Source of the DNA: Arcobacter sp. LA11
GTDB taxonomy: Bacteria; Campylobacterota; Campylobacteria; Campylobacterales; Arcobacteraceae
Assembly: GCF_001895145.1 (NCBI RefSeq)
Contig: NZ_BDIR01000001.1
Span: 62,001 to 126,000 of the forward strand
DNA: 64,000 nt
Reading direction: 5' to 3'
Shown: positions 5,017-64,000 of the stretch, one piece after another
How positions within the stretch are numbered: position 1 is the stretch's first letter
Layout of the letters: every line of letters begins with the position of its first letter
Program-made: the position numbers and the translations under genes
Notes under the pieces: generated by a model
Seen by the model: the letters and a program-made list of their open reading frames with translations, nothing else
Databases searched by the model: none
What the model was told of the DNA's origin: nothing

Positions 5017-5787
5017 TTATTGTCCTTTAAAATTTGGTTTTCTTTTTTCTTTAAATGCACTAATTCCCTCTTTTTTATCTTCACTTGATAATATTCCTGA
5101 GAAAACTGTCTTTTCATATTTAAGAGATGTGCTTAATCCATTATCATATGATGCTAAAACAGCACTTTTAATTGCACTAATTGCTAATGGAGATTTTTTT
5201 GCAATCTTATTTGCAATTTCTAGTGCTCTAATCATTGTACTTTGCACAGGAACTACTTCTGAAACTAAGTTCATCTTTTGTGCAGTTTTAGCATCAATGA
5301 AATCTCCTGTTAAAAGCATTAACATGGCATTTGATTTACCCATTGCTTTTACTGTACGTTGTGTTCCCCCTGCTCCTGGCATGATTCCTAAGTTGATTTC
5401 AGGTTGACCAAATTGTGCATTATCTCCGCATATAATAATGTCACAATGCATAGCAAGTTCACACCCTCCACCTAAACAAAATCCATTTACTGCAGCGATA
5501 ATAGGCTTTTTAAATTCTTTAATAGATTCCCAATAAGAAGTTCTAACATCATTTATTGATTCAACTGCACCTTTAACTTCTAGTTCATTAATATCTGCTC
5601 CCGCTGCAAATACTTTTTCTCCTCCAGTTAAAATAATACATTTAATTTCATCAGTGCTGTTTTGTAACACTTCATGAATTTCTTTTAATGTATTAGTTCT
5701 TAATGCATTGTAAACTTCACTTCTATTAAGTGTAATAATAAGTATATGTGAATCTTCAACATCTACTTTTATATCTTTAAAGCCCAT
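5017..5787 (-). CDS. paaF: 2,3-dehydroadipyl-CoA hydratase PaaF (enoyl-CoA hydratase)
   Basis: Enoyl-CoA hydratase of 256 residues. Crotonase signatures are FAAGADINEL (oxyanion loop), GFCLGGGCELAMHCD, and GQPEINLGIMPGAGGTQRT with the catalytic glutamate. In phenylacetate catabolism PaaF hydrates 2,3-dehydroadipyl-CoA. The start is ATG 5787, directly behind a strong GGAGGAG ribosome site. A longer reading beginning at TTG 5799 would place the start codon inside that site and is rejected. It is the first gene of the leftward paa operon, divergent from paaN. Confidence 0.9.
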   Translation of the reverse strand: MGFKDIKVDVEDSHILIITLNRSEVYNALRTNTLKEIHEVLQNSTDEIKCIILTGGEKVFAAGADINELEVKGAVESINDVRTSYWESIKEFKKPIIAAVNGFCLGGGCELAMHCDIIICGDNAQFGQPEINLGIMPGAGGTQRTVKAMGKSNAMLMLLTGDFIDAKTAQKMNLVSEVVPVQSTMIRALEIANKIAKKSPLAISAIKSAVLASYDNGLSTSLKYEKTVFSGILSSEDKKEGISAFKEKRKPNFKGQ

Positions 5788-5870
5788 TTTCTCCTCCAAA
5801 TAATATATCTATTTCAAAAAAACTAAAAAAATTCTAACAAATGTAATATATATTAAAGCTTAAAAATAAA

Positions 5871-5896
5871 TGCTATTTTTTTGCTATTTGCTATAA
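5871..5896. promoter_or_regulatory. Phased TGCTATTT repeats in the paaF/paaN divergent promoter
   Basis: TGCTATTT occurs at 5871 and again at 5882, exactly 11 bp apart, followed by TGCTATAA at 5889. An A/T-rich candidate -10 for the leftward paaF operon (reverse complement of 5846-5851) would put this block around -40. The same octamer pair at the same period occurs upstream of dctP (61227-61248). Eleven-bp direct repeats are the usual site geometry for OmpR/PhoB-type response regulators. Operator function is inferred. Confidence 0.5.
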
Positions 5897-5993: not shown

Positions 5994-7652
5994 ATGAGTC
6001 TTTTTGAGAAACATAATGAAACATTGACAAGAGCATTGGAAGAAATCAAAAATAGAGGGTATTGGTCTCCTTATTTTGAAATTCCAAGTTCGAAGGTTTA
6101 TGGTGAAGGGAAAAAGGAGGAGTCAATAAACTCTTTTAAAGGGCAACTAAATAATAGATATGAAATCAAAGGTTTAGATACAGATAAATATCTAGGGGCT
6201 GAAACTTCTCCATATGGTTTTGATTTAGGAATTACATACCCATCAATTCCAGCTGATACTTTAGTTGAAAATTCAAAGAAAGCTATGAATCAATGGAAAA
6301 AGATTAGCTTAGATGAAAGAGCTGGTATCTGTTTAGAAATTCTTGATAGAATCAATAAAAGATCATTTGAAATTGCAAATGCAGTTATGCATACAACAGG
6401 ACAACCATATATGATGGCTTTTCAAGCAGGTGGACCTCATGCACAAGATAGAGGATTAGAAGCTTTAGCTTACGCATATAAGCAATTAGCAGATATTCCA
6501 ACAGAATCTGTATTTACAAAACCTACAGGAAGAGATAATCCTCCAATTGTTGTAAATAAAAAATTAAGAGTTGCTCCACGAGGTATCTCTTTGATTATTA
6601 CTTGTTCTACTTTCCCTACTTGGAACTCATATTCTGCTCTGTTTGCATCCTTAGTTACTGGAAATTCAATTATTTATAAACCGCATAGAAATGGTATCTT
6701 ACCAATTGCACTTACTGTTGAAATTGCAAGGGAAGTATTAGAAGAAAATGGAGTTTGTCCAGATTTAGTATCTATGATTATAAGTGATGATAGAACAGAG
6801 ACTCAAAATTTAGTTAAAAATAAAGCTGTAAAAATCATCGATTTTACAGGAAGTACTTCATTTGGTGATTGGTTAGAAGATAATGCCCCTCAAGCAAATG
6901 TATATACAGAAAAAGCTGGTGTGAATTGTTTAATTGTAGATAATTATGATAACTTAAAAGGTATGACTAGAAATATGTCTATGGCTCTTTCTTTATACTC
7001 TTCACAAATGTGTACAGCTCCACAAAATATCTTTATTCCAAAAGATGGTGTTGTTTCAAATGGTGAAAAAGTTTCATTTGATGAAGTTGCCTCTATGATT
7101 GCTGGAAGTGTTGAAAAACTTCTTTCTGTAGATGAAAGAGCAACTGAAATCCTAGGAGCTATTCAAAATAGTGAAATCTGTCAAAGGGTTGAAGAAGCTG
7201 GAAATATAGGTGAAGTTATTTTAGAATCAAAAGAGATTAAACATCCTATGTTTGAAAATGCTACAATTAAAACACCAGTAATAGTAAAAATTTCTGCAGA
7301 AGATAAAGATAAATATCATAATGAACATTTTGGGCCAGTGATTTTACTAATTGAAACAGAATCTAGAGAAGATACATTAGCCGTATGGCAAGAAACAATT
7401 GAACTTCATGGTGCAATTACAGCTGGTGTTTATACATCAGATGAAGAGTATTTAAAAAAAGTGGAAGATATTGCAATTGATGAAAAAGTAAACTTATCAG
7501 TTAATTTAACTGGTCATGTACTTATGAATCATTCAGCAGCATTTACAGACTTTCACGCAACAGGAGATAATAAGGCTGCAAATTGTGCATTGTCAAATGA
7601 CAATTTTGTTTCTGGGCGTTATTCTGTTGTAACAATTAAAAGGGATGCATAG
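5994..7652 (+). CDS. paaN: Aldehyde dehydrogenase PaaN (PaaZ-type dehydrogenase without hydratase domain)
   Basis: Aldehyde dehydrogenase-fold enzyme of 552 residues. The nucleophile is C340 in SSQMCTAPQNIF; the cofactor region has DFTGSTSFGDWLE and the TEKAGVN segment with the general-base glutamate. It would oxidise the ring-opened semialdehyde (3-oxo-5,6-dehydrosuberyl-CoA semialdehyde). E. coli PaaZ is about 680 residues because it carries a C-terminal MaoC-type hydratase that opens the oxepin ring; here the protein ends after the dehydrogenase domain, as in the shorter PaaN group. A weak AAAGGA ribosome site precedes the ATG. Its TAG overlaps the paaY GTG by one base. Confidence 0.9.
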   Translation: MSLFEKHNETLTRALEEIKNRGYWSPYFEIPSSKVYGEGKKEESINSFKGQLNNRYEIKGLDTDKYLGAETSPYGFDLGITYPSIPADTLVENSKKAMNQWKKISLDERAGICLEILDRINKRSFEIANAVMHTTGQPYMMAFQAGGPHAQDRGLEALAYAYKQLADIPTESVFTKPTGRDNPPIVVNKKLRVAPRGISLIITCSTFPTWNSYSALFASLVTGNSIIYKPHRNGILPIALTVEIAREVLEENGVCPDLVSMIISDDRTETQNLVKNKAVKIIDFTGSTSFGDWLEDNAPQANVYTEKAGVNCLIVDNYDNLKGMTRNMSMALSLYSSQMCTAPQNIFIPKDGVVSNGEKVSFDEVASMIAGSVEKLLSVDERATEILGAIQNSEICQRVEEAGNIGEVILESKEIKHPMFENATIKTPVIVKISAEDKDKYHNEHFGPVILLIETESREDTLAVWQETIELHGAITAGVYTSDEEYLKKVEDIAIDEKVNLSVNLTGHVLMNHSAAFTDFHATGDNKAANCALSNDNFVSGRYSVVTIKRDA

Positions 7653-11324: not shown

Positions 11325-11347
11325 AAAAGGGAGTGCTAAAAGCACTC
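11325..11347 (-). terminator. Intrinsic terminator of the 4.5S RNA gene
   Basis: Reading the minus strand, GAGTGCT (11347-11341) pairs with AGCACTC (11337-11331) across TTT, followed by CC and six T residues. It terminates the SRP RNA transcript and directly abuts the stop of the opposing HTH gene. Confidence 0.85.
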
Positions 11348-11450
11348 TTCTCCAGATACCCAAACACACTAAAGATAGAGGTGCCTTGCTATGTTCCCAT
11401 CCTGGGGCATTGTCTCTAAAAATAATTGTAAGGGTCTAAAGAAGAGCATA
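11346..11450 (-). ncRNA. ffs: 4.5S signal recognition particle RNA
   Basis: The minus strand contains CCAGG-ATG-GGAA-CAT-AGCAA (about 11404-11386), which is the SRP domain IV: a GGAA tetraloop on a 3-bp stem (11400-11391), the symmetric loop formed by CAGG and AGCA, then GCC/GGC. E. coli has the same pattern, TCAGG-TCC-GGAA-GGA-AGCAG. The outer helix is supported by TCTTCTTTAGACCC (11445-11432) pairing with GGGTATCTGGAGAAGA (11361-11346) with two wobbles and a 2-nt bulge. This is the small bacterial form without an Alu domain. The 5' end is approximate. Confidence 0.88.
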
Positions 11451-57914: not shown

Positions 57915-59264
57915 CTATCTATCAGATACCATTCCGAAGAATTCTGGATAGAATGCTACAATTGCAAGCACGATGACTTGTATCGCAATGAATGGTAAAA
58001 CCCCTTTATAAATCTGGGAAGTCCTAACACTTGATGGGGCACACCCTTTTAAGTAGAAGAGACTAAATCCAAATGGTGGGGTTAAGAACGATGTTTGTAA
58101 ATTCATAGCAATTAAAATTGCAAACCAAACTGGATTAATTCCTAAAGCATCAGCTACTGGTAATAAAATTGGAACAATAATATATGAAATTTCAATAAAA
58201 TCAATAAAGAAACCTAATACTAAAATTGCCAACATTGTAAAGATTATAAATCCCCATTTCCCATCACCTGGTAAGCTAAGCATTGCATGTTCAACTAATT
58301 CTTCTCCACCTGTATATGAGAATACCATTGAGAATGCTGTTGCACCAATTAAGATACCAAATACCATAGATGTGATTTTAACAGATTCTAATGCGGCTGT
58401 TCTAACCATATCTAACTCAAAAGTTCTATACATTAATGCAAGACCAATTGCTCCAATACAACCAACTGCAGCTGATTCTGTAGGTGTTGCAACACCAGCA
58501 AAAATTGAACCAAGTACTAATATAATAAGCGTTAATGATGGAATAATATCAACTAATGCTTTTAGTACTTGTTTCTTTTTAGTTCCACGACTTGGATCAG
58601 AAGGAATAGCTGGTGCCATATCTTTAAAGAAATAAGCCATAACTAAAATATATAAAATATATGCTGCAACTAATGCAAGTCCTGGCCCAACTGCTGATTT
58701 AAAAAGGTCACCAACTGGAACTTGAAATACATCCCCTAAAATAATTAATACAATTGAAGGAGGGATAATTTGCCCTAATGTTCCAGAAGCACAAATTGTA
58801 CCTGTTGCTAATTCTGTATTATATTTGTATTTTAACATTACAGGAAGGGATATTACACCCATTGCAACAACTGATGCTCCAACAACTCCTGTTGATGCTG
58901 CTAGTAATGTACCAACAAGTACAGTTGAGATAGCAACTCCACCTCTAATTTCTCCAAATAAGAATCCCATAGATTCTAATAGTTTTTCTGCAAGACCAGT
59001 TTTTTGTAAAACAATTCCCATAAAAATAAACATTGGAATTGCCATTAAAATTGTATTTTGTTGAATGGCATAGATTCTAAAAGGCATATAGTCAAACATT
59101 GCTATACCTTCCATAATTCCTTCAATTAAAGTACCATCTGCACCTATTTCTACAATCCCTGCAATTATTCCGAAGAATACTGATACTGCAGCAAATGTAA
59201 ATGCAACAGGAAATCCAATTAACAACATAAACAATGCTGTAAAAAACATAATTATACCAATCAT
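57915..59264 (-). CDS. dctM: TRAP transporter large permease DctM
   Basis: 449-residue permease with about twelve helices. DctM motifs: LIGFPVAFTFAAVSV at the N-terminus, STGVVGASVVAMGVISLP, ASGTLGQIIPPSIVLIILG, and NLQTSFLTPPFGFSLFYLKG. It couples Na+ entry to solute uptake together with DctQ and DctP. Overlaps dctQ by 4 bp. Confidence 0.95.
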   Translation of the reverse strand: MIGIIMFFTALFMLLIGFPVAFTFAAVSVFFGIIAGIVEIGADGTLIEGIMEGIAMFDYMPFRIYAIQQNTILMAIPMFIFMGIVLQKTGLAEKLLESMGFLFGEIRGGVAISTVLVGTLLAASTGVVGASVVAMGVISLPVMLKYKYNTELATGTICASGTLGQIIPPSIVLIILGDVFQVPVGDLFKSAVGPGLALVAAYILYILVMAYFFKDMAPAIPSDPSRGTKKKQVLKALVDIIPSLTLIILVLGSIFAGVATPTESAAVGCIGAIGLALMYRTFELDMVRTAALESVKITSMVFGILIGATAFSMVFSYTGGEELVEHAMLSLPGDGKWGFIIFTMLAILVLGFFIDFIEISYIIVPILLPVADALGINPVWFAILIAMNLQTSFLTPPFGFSLFYLKGCAPSSVRTSQIYKGVLPFIAIQVIVLAIVAFYPEFFGMVSDR

Positions 59265-59881
59265 TTTGAATCTCCTTTCTCATCACCTTTTTCATCAATA
59301 TCTACTATGTGATGCTTATGCTCTTCTAATTCTTGTTTTAAATTTTCAATTTCACCTTTTAGATTATATTCTTCTAATCCGTGTAATCCTTTATATGTAT
59401 TTAGATTTTTAAGAAAAAATCCAATTGTTGTAATAATCAATAAAAAGAAAGATAAAGGAATTAAAGCCTTTACTATCCATCTATAATGCAATCCTCCTGG
59501 ATCACCACTTTGTTCCATTGATTGATATGCTTCTACTGCATTATCAATTGAACTAATTCCAACTAAAAAAGCAATTGGTAAAATAAATAGAATTGCACCA
59601 ACCATGTTAATCATAGCTTTTTTTCTTGGAGTTAATCTATCATAAATTAAGTCAACTCTTACGTGCCCATCTTCTTTTAAAGTATAAGCAACACCTAATA
59701 ATATTATTACAGAGAATAGGTGCCATTCCATCTCTTGCATTGCAATTGAACCTGATTTAAAAAAGTATCTCATGACAACATCGTAAAATACATTTATAAT
59801 CATTAGAACCATTGCCATAGCAGTTATAAGTCCAATAAAGTCTGCAAACTTATTGAAGCCTCGTTCTAGTTTTAACAACAT
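59261..59881 (-). CDS. dctQ: TRAP transporter small permease DctQ
   Basis: 206 residues, four helices; the W-H-x3-I (MEWHLFSVIILLG) and DGHVRVDLIYDRLTPRKK motifs define the DctQ family. The C-terminus is an extended charged coil (ENLKQELEEHKHHIVDIDEK), longer than usual. It lies between dctP, across a hairpin, and dctM. Confidence 0.92.
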   Translation of the reverse strand: MLLKLERGFNKFADFIGLITAMAMVLMIINVFYDVVMRYFFKSGSIAMQEMEWHLFSVIILLGVAYTLKEDGHVRVDLIYDRLTPRKKAMINMVGAILFILPIAFLVGISSIDNAVEAYQSMEQSGDPGGLHYRWIVKALIPLSFFLLIITTIGFFLKNLNTYKGLHGLEEYNLKGEIENLKQELEEHKHHIVDIDEKGDEKGDSK

Positions 59882-60009: not shown

Positions 60010-61083
60010 TTATAAGTTATCTTTTAAGTATAGGTAGTCTGACATTTTAGTCCACTCTCTAGCTTTCTTTTGGAAAGCAGCTTGAGAATCTAATACCTCT
60101 TTTAAGAATGGTTGACCTTTAGTTTTTTCAACTAATAAGTCTGCATTCGCTTTTTTCATAGCATCCATAACTTCTTTAGGGAAAGTTTTGATTTTAATAT
60201 TTGGATAATCTGACTCAATTTTTGACCAAGCATCAGCTGACATTGCGTAGTTTTGTACATACATATCATATGCAGAAACTCTCATAGCTGTAACTAAGAT
60301 TTGTTGTAAATCTTTTGGTAATTTATTGAATTTTCTTTCATTTACTAGGAATTGTAATTCAGTTCCTGGCTCATGCCATCCTGTAAAGTAGTAAGGAGCA
60401 ATTTTGTGGAATCCCATGTTAATGTCCATACCAGGCCCAACCCATTCTAATGCGTCAATAGTTCCTCTTTCTAGTGATGTATATAATTCACCAGAAGCAA
60501 TGTTAGTAACTGTTAATCCTAATTTTGCCATAACTTCACCAGCAAATCCAGGGATTCTCATTTTAAGACCTTTTAAGTCATCAACAGTTTTAATATCTTT
60601 TCTGAACCATCCACCCATTTGGTTACCAGTGTTTCCACCAGGATATGATAATACTTTATGTTTTTTATATGCTTTTTTCATTAAGTCCATACCACCACCG
60701 TAGTAGAACCAAGAGTATTGCTCAACAGCTGTCATACCAAATGGCATAGTTGTAAATGGTAAAGTATTAATATCTTTACCTTTCCAGTAATAAGATGCAG
60801 AGTGACCCATGTCATACTGACCACCTTTTACCATATCTAAAATACCTAAAGCAGCTTTATGTTTATTTGAAGCATCTACTCTAATTAGTAATCTTCCATT
60901 TGACATCTCTTTTACAAGTTTTGCCATATTTTTTGGTGCATCAATAAATGGTGACAGTGTTGGTCCCCAAGTTGTTGCTAATTTCCATTTGTAAACTTTG
61001 TCTTTTGCCATTGCAGCAGTTCCAAGTCCTGCAACTAAAGCAGTAGCTACAAGTAGCTTTGTCGTTTTACCGAACATATTCAT
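60010..61083 (-). CDS. dctP: TRAP transporter solute-binding protein DctP (TakP/lactate-type)
   Basis: 357 residues with a signal peptide (MNMFGKTTKLLVATALVAG, cleavage after AMA). The binding arginine lies in GLKMRIPGFAGEVM, and LEWVGPGMDINMGF with TGWHEPGTELQF is characteristic of the branch that includes keto-acid (TakP) and lactate-binding members. ATG 61083 follows AAAGGAG by 5 bp; an upstream in-frame start within the promoter is rejected. First gene of the operon. Confidence 0.9.
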   Translation of the reverse strand: MNMFGKTTKLLVATALVAGLGTAAMAKDKVYKWKLATTWGPTLSPFIDAPKNMAKLVKEMSNGRLLIRVDASNKHKAALGILDMVKGGQYDMGHSASYYWKGKDINTLPFTTMPFGMTAVEQYSWFYYGGGMDLMKKAYKKHKVLSYPGGNTGNQMGGWFRKDIKTVDDLKGLKMRIPGFAGEVMAKLGLTVTNIASGELYTSLERGTIDALEWVGPGMDINMGFHKIAPYYFTGWHEPGTELQFLVNERKFNKLPKDLQQILVTAMRVSAYDMYVQNYAMSADAWSKIESDYPNIKIKTFPKEVMDAMKKANADLLVEKTKGQPFLKEVLDSQAAFQKKAREWTKMSDYLYLKDNL

Positions 61084-61177
61084 GTGATCTCCTTTGTTTT
61101 GTCTCAATTCAAATTGTAACCGCACTAAATGAAAAAGGTATGATATTTTTGTCATATTAAGAAAAAAATCGCTATAT

Positions 61178-61226: not shown

Positions 61227-61248
61227 AATGCTATTTTAATGCTATTTT
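61227..61248. promoter_or_regulatory. Tandem 11-bp direct repeat upstream of dctP (response-regulator box)
   Basis: AATGCTATTTT occurs twice head to tail, 61227-61237 and 61238-61248. An exact tandem 11-bp repeat is the binding geometry of OmpR/PhoB-type regulators, and such a regulator is encoded immediately upstream. The same TGCTATTT core at 11-bp phase occurs in the paaF/paaN promoter. Confidence 0.7.
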
Positions 61249-61267: not shown

Positions 61268-61912
61268 TTAGTCAGTTTTGAATATATAACCAGTATCAAC
61301 TACTGTTTGAATATAATCTTCTTTTACAACTTTTCTTAGTCTTCTTATAAGACTTCTTATTGATTCTATTGATGCAAAAGAGCCTTCCCATACATAGTTT
61401 TCTATTGCTTCATATGATAAGACTTGATTTTTCTTTGTTAAAAAAAGATTCATAAGCAATCTCTCTTTTTTTGTGAGTCTTTGTATCTCTCCATTAATTG
61501 TAATAGTAGAAGATTTATAATCAAAAGTAGAGTTTTTATCAAATTGTATAATTTCGTCTTTTATTTGACAAAGTCTTTCTACTTTTATTTCTAGCTCATC
61601 AATAAAGAAAGGTTTTTTTAGATAATCGTTACAACCAAAGTCATATGATTCTTTTATAATATCAAGTTCAACTGTAGCACTTATTATAATTACAGGAACT
61701 TCATCATAGTATTCTCTAATTTTTTTTAATATTTTTATTCCATCTATATTTGGTACGTTTATATCTAAGATAAAACAAGAAAATCCTTCAGTAATGTTAT
61801 CTAAAGCATCTCTTCCATCAATATAGTTAAAAACCTTATATCCCTTAAGTTCTAAACGTTTTTTAATAGTAGTATTTAATTTCTTATTATCTTCAAGAAG
61901 TAGTATTTTCAT
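61268..61912 (-). CDS. OmpR-type response regulator of the TRAP operon
   Basis: 214 residues: receiver with D50 in CFILDINVPNIDG and K in DYLKKPFFIDEL, then a winged helix (RLTKKERLLMNLFLTKKNQVL, IRSLIRRLRKVV, VDTGYIF). It likely activates dctPQM from the tandem repeat just downstream of its stop. Overlaps the kinase gene by 20 bp (coupled). Confidence 0.92.
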   Translation of the reverse strand: MKILLLEDNKKLNTTIKKRLELKGYKVFNYIDGRDALDNITEGFSCFILDINVPNIDGIKILKKIREYYDEVPVIIISATVELDIIKESYDFGCNDYLKKPFFIDELEIKVERLCQIKDEIIQFDKNSTFDYKSSTITINGEIQRLTKKERLLMNLFLTKKNQVLSYEAIENYVWEGSFASIESIRSLIRRLRKVVKEDYIQTVVDTGYIFKTD

Positions 61913-64000
61913 TTGAAAAACCTTTATTATGAGGAAGTTTTAATGTAAATATAACATTATTATCTTTATTTTGTGCACTTATAATTCCATCCATCTTATC
62001 TTCAATAATCACTTTTGCCATATAAAGCCCAAAACCTGTACCATCTTTTTTTGTAGTAAAGTATGGTTCAAATATTTTATCAATAATATTGCTATCAATA
62101 TTACCACCATCATCAATAATCTCCACAACTGTGTATGATGGCCTTTTTCTAATATTAATTGTTAAATTGAATTTTTCATCAGATTTTTTTTCTACAATTT
62201 TATTCTTTGCATTGTTAATAAGGTTTAATAATACTTGTTTGAACTCATTTTCGTATCCATATATTAACAATTCTTCTTCGTGTGTATCATAGTTAATACT
62301 CATATTGATGTTAGAATAAAAAATTTGTTTTTCTATAATCTCAAATATATCTTCAAAAGACTTTCTAATAGAGAAAAGTTTTTTCTTTGTAGATGGTTTT
62401 AAAAAGTTTCTAAAGTCACTTAATGTTTGTGACATATATTTTATTTGAACCATCGAATCATTTACAAAATCTTTTACATCAATGTCTTTTAATTCATTTA
62501 AGAGAAAAGAGGTCTGAATATCCTGTACATGAGCAGACAATTCAACTAATGGTTCATTCCATTGGTGTGCAATTGCAGCAACCATATCACCCATTTCTGC
62601 TAGTTTACCTTGTTGAATTAAAAATTGTTTTTGTTGTATTCGTTCAGTAATATCATCCATGATACATACAATTCCACCTATTGAACTATCATTATTTAGA
62701 TAAACTGCTTTATTGATAATTATATGTTTCATATGATTATTGGATAAGTGAAGAGTAACTTCTGAAGTATTAGTACCTAAGCTTTTTAGTAATTCTTTAT
62801 CTACTTCTTCATTTCTTTTTGCAATATCAGGAGCAAAAAAGTCATGAGCTGTTTTTCCTATAACATCTTTTTTTCTAATATTTAATAGGTTCGAAAATGC
62901 TTTATTACATCCTAAAAACTTACCTTCTTTATTTTTATAATAAATTGGATTAGGCAGAGTATCTAATAGTACTTTATCAAACTTGATTCTATTTTGTAAA
63001 TCTTTTTCTACAATTTTTCTTCTTTGGATATTGGCTTTCATTGAAAAGACCATTATTGTTAAAACAAGAATTATTGTTATAGTTATAACTACTAATTTTG
63101 TATATTTTCTAAAAAATCCATGGGGTTCGTTTATAAGTTCATAATCTTCTAAATGTTTATCCACATCTATATTAAATCTATTTAACTCTTCATAATCAAA
63201 AAGATATTTATTTGGAGATTTTTCTAAAATGGGGATATCTTTTATTTTTTTTCCATTAAAAATTTTAAGAGCCATGTCTGAAACTGCGTTACCTTGTGCT
63301 GTGGCAGAAGTTAAGAGCCCTCCAACAATTCCAAAATCAAGATAAAAATCCCATAGCCCATAGATTGGTACGACACTTGTTTTTCTAATTTCTTCTAAAC
63401 TCTGCTTATAAGTGAAATATTTTCCAGTTTTATCTTTAAAAAGAAGTACAAAAAGAATAACAGTATCATCATCTAGTTGGGAAACTTTTTTTTGTAAATT
63501 TTTTATTTCAATATCATCCACATACTCTATTTCTACTTTTTGGGAATATTTTTCAATTATTGGACGTAAATCTCTTTTTATTGCATAACCTGTTTTGGAT
63601 CTATCATTTACAATTACAAGTTTTTTCAATGTTGGATGGAGTTTTAAAATTAACTCAAAATTTTTCTCTAAGTCTACTTGTTCTACAACTCCACTCATAT
63701 ATTTAGTCATGTAATTTTCGTCAAGTTGTGCTTTGTCAAAATTATTAATTCCCGTAAATAATACAGGAAGCCCTTTGAACAAATATTCATGATATCTAAT
63801 TGCAAAATCAAAGGCATTATTATCACTTGCTATGATTAAATCAAAATTTCTTCGTGAAAGTTGTTCTTTATAGAGTTCTGCTAGTTTATCAAGATAGATT
63901 GGACCTACAATTCTTTTTGTATCCATATACAATGTTGTAAGTTCTATATCACTATGAGGCCCAAATTTTTCTTCAATTGCTTTTGAAATATCATCACTCC
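61893..64000 (-). CDS. Sensor histidine kinase, N-terminus beyond window edge
   Basis: The frame is open through position 64000, so the N-terminus is missing. Visible parts: a periplasmic ABC-sugar/ABC_sub_bind-like sensor half (FDLIIASDNNAFDFAIRYHE, KKLVIVNDRSKTGYAI, VPIYGLWDFYLDFGIVGGLL), a membrane helix (about 63040-63100), a PAS domain (PNPIYYKNKEGKFLGCNKAF), and a kinase core with AIAHQWNEPL in place of the common AHQWRQPL, then NNAKNK, DDGGNID and GTGFGLYMAK. Cognate to the following regulator; presumably senses the TRAP substrate or a related signal. Confidence 0.9.
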   Translation of the reverse strand, partial: SDDISKAIEEKFGPHSDIELTTLYMDTKRIVGPIYLDKLAELYKEQLSRRNFDLIIASDNNAFDFAIRYHEYLFKGLPVLFTGINNFDKAQLDENYMTKYMSGVVEQVDLEKNFELILKLHPTLKKLVIVNDRSKTGYAIKRDLRPIIEKYSQKVEIEYVDDIEIKNLQKKVSQLDDDTVILFVLLFKDKTGKYFTYKQSLEEIRKTSVVPIYGLWDFYLDFGIVGGLLTSATAQGNAVSDMALKIFNGKKIKDIPILEKSPNKYLFDYEELNRFNIDVDKHLEDYELINEPHGFFRKYTKLVVITITIILVLTIMVFSMKANIQRRKIVEKDLQNRIKFDKVLLDTLPNPIYYKNKEGKFLGCNKAFSNLLNIRKKDVIGKTAHDFFAPDIAKRNEEVDKELLKSLGTNTSEVTLHLSNNHMKHIIINKAVYLNNDSSIGGIVCIMDDITERIQQKQFLIQQGKLAEMGDMVAAIAHQWNEPLVELSAHVQDIQTSFLLNELKDIDVKDFVNDSMVQIKYMSQTLSDFRNFLKPSTKKKLFSIRKSFEDIFEIIEKQIFYSNINMSINYDTHEEELLIYGYENEFKQVLLNLINNAKNKIVEKKSDEKFNLTINIRKRPSYTVVEIIDDGGNIDSNIIDKIFEPYFTTKKDGTGFGLYMAKVIIEDKMDGIISAQNKDNNVIFTLKLPHNKGFSNENTTS

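Follow-up and report, generated by a model that had tools for sequence, protein, structure and literature searches.

Why does one octamer, TGCTATTT, occur twice at 11-bp spacing both in the paa region and in the dctP promoter region of Arcobacter sp. LA11, and which regulator would read it? We addressed this question with a 64,000-nt stretch of the genome, referred to as the window, and with related genomes. The two octamer pairs that a preliminary description had reported at 5871/5882 and 61229/61240 are both perfect and both on the plus strand (Table 1), and they are the only pairs in the window with up to two mismatches. The first pair is ~104 bp from the paaN start and ~83 bp from the likely paaF start (5787), and is followed after 2 bp by TATAAA, while the second is oriented away from dctP. 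The accompanying statement that the window holds no other phased pair does not stand, since a different 11-bp direct repeat, TATCAT-N5-TTTCAT, lies on the minus strand of the same dctP promoter.

Table 1. Features of the paa and dct regions of the window, and the candidate regulator gene located outside it
Feature	Position	Strand	Remarks
paaF-like enoyl-CoA hydratase	5017-5799	-	first gene of divergent paa operon; best NCBIfam model PaaF, below cut-off
TGCTATTT-N3-TGCTATTT box	5871-5889	+	divergent paaF/paaN intergenic region; PWM score 26.6
paaN	5994-7652	+	TIGR02288, above cut-off
dctM	57915-59264	-	Pfam DctM
dctQ	59261-59881	-	Pfam DctQ
dctP, TRAP solute-binding protein	60010-61083	-	likely start 61083, after AAGGAGATCAC
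TACAAT, likely dctP -10 element	61113-61118	-	GTTA(C/A/G)AATT aligned at fixed spacing in orthologous promoters
TATCAT-N5-TTTCAT, 11-bp direct repeat	61129-61145	-	10 bp before TACAAT; G000:C1:123129-123146
TGCTATTT-N3-TGCTATTT box	61229-61247	+	between response-regulator stop and dctP; PWM score 33.8
OmpR/PhoB-type response regulator	61268-61912	-	receiver and Trans_reg_C; adjoins dctP
Sensor kinase	61893-63932	-	ABC_sub_bind-like sensor region, PAS, HATPase; partner of 61268-61912 regulator
OmpR-type regulator (L164)	G000:C2:377058-377717		sodium:solute (acetate-type) symporter cluster; beside Cache-domain kinase

Consensus and genomic distribution of the box

The box is essentially TGCTA-N6-TGCTA. 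Its unit, derived from 76 intergenic sites of the LA11 genome and its relatives, is TGCTATTTTAA, repeated head-to-tail at 11 bp. The columns that had been left as N in the search are T in 92%, A in 74% and A in 75% of these sites, and because this consensus is independent of how the sites were found, it serves as an internal check on the box. In 61 genomes of the family, 143 exact octamer pairs are separated by 0-25 bp; 48 of them have a gap of 3 bp, against 12 for the next commonest gap, indicating that the 11-bp phase is specific. This preference, together with the repeat unit present in the position weight matrix, bears out the proposal of an OmpR/PhoB-type direct repeat. The architecture is of a known kind, the OmpR/PhoB tandem repeat, with direct repeats ~11 bp apart centre to centre and sites in promoters rather than in coding sequence.

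Genome-wide sites were collected by pattern matching with mismatches, using the reversed pattern as a control. The 3.1-Mb LA11 genome contains four perfect pairs and nine pairs with at most one mismatch, all nine intergenic, and none in the reversed pattern; matches with two mismatches are weak and mostly coding, and were left out of the counts. The refined pattern yields 15 sites in this genome against 0 for its reverse. In 42 genomes of the Arcobacteraceae (family f1), the box has 126 sites against 3 reversed; the named relatives in this family are Arcobacter, Aliarcobacter, Poseidonibacter, Malaciobacter and Halarcobacter. The pair is therefore far more frequent than chance predicts; a frequency at chance level was what the preliminary description had said would speak against it. 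From these sequence patterns, we infer that the doubled word is a real, conserved docking site of a regulator.

The two pairs of the window are the visible part of a larger regulon. With operon functions assigned from Pfam/NCBIfam hits, from orthology to such proteins, or from translations, boxes in the LA11 genome precede, besides paa and dctPQM, a sox sulfite-dehydrogenase/moeA operon, a dctP-type TRAP protein/gltB operon, two branched-chain-type ABC transporters (one of them upstream of an enoyl-CoA-hydratase-like gene), pta, actP (twice), oadG/oadA (weakly), a Cache-domain periplasmic protein, an NiFe hydrogenase, a lactate permease and glpD/ABC genes. In relatives from many genera, the box again precedes the orthologues of actP, pta, liv, soxC, the hydrogenase and gltB/dctP, and in some of them it precedes lactate permease, nuoA, ccoN or aldehyde dehydrogenase. 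Since the same operons bear the box in relatives, the earlier idea that one regulator links aromatic-acid catabolism with organic-acid uptake proves right in spirit but too narrow, the set of box-bearing operons being larger.

The paa and dct sites themselves are conserved only narrowly. The paaF-paaN box is found at the same place in G292 and is absent from G404 and G397, giving two of four paaN loci, and the box beside dctP is found in 4 of the 26 loci where the regulator gene and dctP are separated by a clear gap. Conservation of both sites stays at the genus level, and the two operons therefore look like recent recruits to the regulon.

Box orientation and distance to the start codon differ among targets. 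The pta promoter of LA11 carries a longer array with three box copies, and the box beside the acetate-cluster regulator itself (TGCTAC.TTTTTTGCTA) is weaker than the regulon consensus. Upstream of DUF485-actP in G390 (L264:439-511), five TGCTA boxes overlap or stand head-to-head. The liv promoters (L104, L113, L127, L130 and others) contain a third phased repeat, TTAAG-N6-TTAAG, positioned after the TGCTA box and before the liv start codon, and soxC promoters carry similar TTAAG elements; this repeat is reminiscent of the HsrA/CosR-type motif. G058, a genome of family f4, contains 11 identical TGCTATTTCATTGCTTTTT matches (for example L230, L238 and L246), and the three inspected lie inside coding sequence. 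As these matches are one and the same sequence and the inspected ones are coding, they probably represent a repeated (mobile) element that the motif scan picked up falsely.

The dctP promoter and its neighbouring regulator

An OmpR-type regulator is indeed encoded next to dctP, as the preliminary description had noted, and was its suggested binder of the TGCTATTT pairs. The box lies 20 bp from the stop codon of this regulator gene and is close by as well in G292, G390 and G425, all of the same genus. Among the loci of its orthologues, these and LA11 are the only four in which a TGCTA box adjoins dctP. Although the regulator gene has kept its position next to dctP across many genera, in ~22 other genomes with orthologues 69-84% identical, including G376 and G395 of the same genus, no TGCTA box was found beside dctP. 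Conversely, small genomes such as G008 have TGCTA boxes without a close orthologue of this regulator. In addition, its recognition region, SIRSLIRRLRK, is unlike the.TIRAE..R.KK of the TGCTA-linked clade.

What the orthologous promoters share is the second repeat. Among the 26 loci with regulator and dctP side by side (30 minus 4 in which a wrong neighbour had been picked or dctP was not the next gene), 25 carry TATCAT-N5-TWTCAT at a fixed distance from a TTACAAT-like -10 element, and shuffled promoter sets contain it at a mean of 0.005 per set. TATCAT-N5-TTTCAT is likely the box of the 61268-61912 regulator, judging from this conservation, and the regulator is probably not the TGCTA binder. 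On the strength of the orthologous loci, we rejected it in that role, for which we consider it very unlikely. The assignment of both phased repeats in the dctP promoter is hereby corrected. The TGCTA box lies >100 bp from the -10 element and points the other way, and for this reason it probably adds a second, distal input to a promoter on which the neighbouring regulator would already act via TATCAT-N5-TWTCAT.

The partner kinase of the dctP-adjacent regulator has an N-terminal match to the periplasmic-binding family ABC_sub_bind, fused to PAS and HATPase domains, and is encoded beside the TRAP transporter.

A candidate regulator in the acetate-symporter cluster

The LA11 genome encodes ~48 OmpR-type regulators. 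In 69 OmpR-type loci from LA11 and G008, a box is found at three only, namely the window locus, L164 of LA11 and L193 of G008. L193 is orthologous to L164, and both lie within an acetate-symporter cluster. Homologues of the L164 regulator in families f4, f7, f8 and f10 likewise have a box nearby, before actP or dctPQM; in G318, where dctPQM and a porin-DUF485-actP operon belong to one cluster, boxes precede both.

Linkage between the L164-type regulator and the box is consistent across genomes. Forty named loci encode a regulator with 65% identity or more, and in 29 of them a box with a score of 11 or higher lies within 320 bp downstream; the same downstream box appears in 0 of 335 shuffled sequences and in only 1 of 27 loci with less similar regulators. 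When the 40 loci were read individually, two exact TGCTA words 11 bp apart were seen downstream of the regulator gene in 34, mostly 10-111 bp past its stop codon. The refined pattern occurs in 46 of the 56 genomes that have the regulator clade and in 0 of 24 sampled genomes without it (Fisher p 8e-13, for genomes that are not phylogenetically independent), and where the regulator is absent, most one-mismatch matches are weak or fall in coding sequence. The linkage has exceptions: the regulators of L374-L376, 70-71% identical, have no box beside them, and G395, G106, G237, G273 and G323 have the regulator and no exact refined site.

The linked regulator has Response_reg and Trans_reg_C domains, and nearly all regulators linked to the box share the recognition region.TIRAE..R.KK. 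The partner kinase comprises an sCache_2 sensor domain and HisKA/HATPase, as scanned in the G358 orthologue, since the LA11 gene runs off its contig. Cache-type sensor domains often bind small carboxylates. Taken together, the TGCTA box probably belongs to the acetate-linked OmpR-type regulator at C2:377058-377717, outside the window, which would run a multi-operon regulon, an assignment that we hold with good confidence.

Three other readings of the box were weighed against this assignment. The one with most in its favour, tentative and in our judgement unlikely, is that paralogous OmpR-type regulators (the acetate-cluster type L164, the FIST-kinase type L174 and perhaps more) share the box, with cross-regulation of a common set of operons. 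The recognition residues of the two types are almost the same, and at L174-type loci of G207, G292, G241 and G273 a box lies between the FIST kinase and aldehyde dehydrogenase. Furthermore, G336 retains boxes, one of them before soxC, with an L174-type regulator alone; as its closest regulator is only ~53% identical, paralogues of this type may use the box alongside the L164 type or in its place. Against sharing, the L174 locus of LA11 has no box, and named loci at 50-64% identity have one within 320 bp downstream in just 1 of 19, a count that would not register boxes located upstream of the kinase. A FIST-domain kinase and an OmpR-type regulator adjoin aldehyde dehydrogenase at L254:5761-8327, L272, L273, L108 and L115.

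A role for CemR (HP1021/Cj1608/Abu0127) is suggested by its control of energy conversion in A. butzleri, where it binds the nuoA promoter (PMC11334517), and by one TGCTA box before nuoA in G358. The published HP1021 box, TGTTWCW (PMC6052347), is not the TGCTATTTTAA unit found here. Although high conservation of CemR across Campylobacteria has been described, sampled genomes of families f2, f3 and f6 that have no member of the OmpR clade lack the TGCTA box. On the basis of box sequence and distribution, we rejected CemR as the binder, a role that we regard as highly improbable. An artefact of chance or composition in an AT-rich genome could be argued from the single octamer, whose enrichment in the window is mild (14 occurrences against 7.8 expected), and from G058, whose repeats are able to mimic the signal. 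However, in third-order Markov simulations of the intergenic sequence of the window, which makes up ~8% of its length, the exact pair arose in 0 of 400 runs, and in 0 of 300 simulations was any octamer with at least two G/C paired twice. With the reversed controls, the phase specificity, the intergenic placement and the conservation before orthologous operons adding to this, chance is ruled out as the origin of the pairs and has a negligible probability in our estimate.

Promoter geometry and comparison with known regulons

The acetate-linked regulator at C2:377058-377717 would bind TGCTATTTTAATGCTATTT, with two monomers placed side by side on one face of the DNA, in response to a signal that would probably be a short organic acid. 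TATAAT follows the box after exactly 8 bp in eight promoters, six of which are pta promoters. The pta box replaces the -35 element at this distance, a geometry that suggests that the regulator acts as an activator there. Throughout the Arcobacteraceae, the predicted regulon would comprise acetate uptake, pta, branched-chain-type ABC transporters, TRAP transporters, lactate permease, thiosulfate oxidation and NiFe hydrogenase, with phenylacetate degradation and dctPQM added in the LA11 genus.

By analogy, ArcA is the closest functional parallel. The half-site is TGCTA here and TGTTA in ArcA, the regulator gene is accompanied by acetate symporter genes and by a Cache-domain kinase gene instead of ArcB, and, unlike in the ArcA system, the geometry of the pta promoter suggests activation. 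What the two share are an OmpR-type regulator, tandem direct repeats that in E. coli ArcA boxes are also 11 bp apart centre to centre (PMC3798270) and are often present in three or more copies, and a regulon covering carbon oxidation and electron donors. The C2:377058-377717 regulator is not an ArcA orthologue by NCBIfam, where it stays far below each of the cut-offs listed, reaching no equivalog, and ArcA is not among its 25 best models; the PhoB model scores 75, with a cut-off of 296.

PhoB-dependent promoters have the 11-bp direct repeats of the Pho box in place of a -35 element, a short distance from the -10 element, as pta has the TGCTA box, but half-site and signal differ here and no phosphate genes are among the targets. 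CrbS/CrbR resembles the present system in the two-component control of actP and acetate use. CrbR, however, is a LuxR-family regulator with an inverted-repeat ACTU motif (PMC5715377), whereas the regulator here is OmpR-type, with Trans_reg_C, and its motif is a direct repeat. CemR regulates energy metabolism globally in these bacteria (PMC11334517) but is an orphan atypical regulator with another box, and occurs in lineages without the TGCTA box.

Searches of the open-access literature returned nothing relevant for the motif string, no paper on the TGCTA box or its regulon, and none on an OmpR-type regulator linked with acetate genes in Campylobacterota. On balance, we favour the view that the box marks an undescribed, family-wide regulon for carbon and energy sources in the Arcobacteraceae. 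A local, acetate-linked OmpR-type regulator of Campylobacterota, controlling actP and dctPQM elsewhere, would have widened there into an ArcA-like global regulon that takes in hydrogen, sulfur, lactate, amino-acid and aromatic substrates, individual genera having recruited operons such as paa simply by gaining TGCTA-N6-TGCTA. The precise box, the candidate regulator and kinase and the list of predicted targets lend themselves to direct testing, and the case illustrates a way in which the local switch of a transporter may expand to a regulon of global reach.

Apart from these elements, the window contains a bacterial small SRP RNA (Rfam RF00169) at 11346-11442 on the minus strand, its sole Rfam match.
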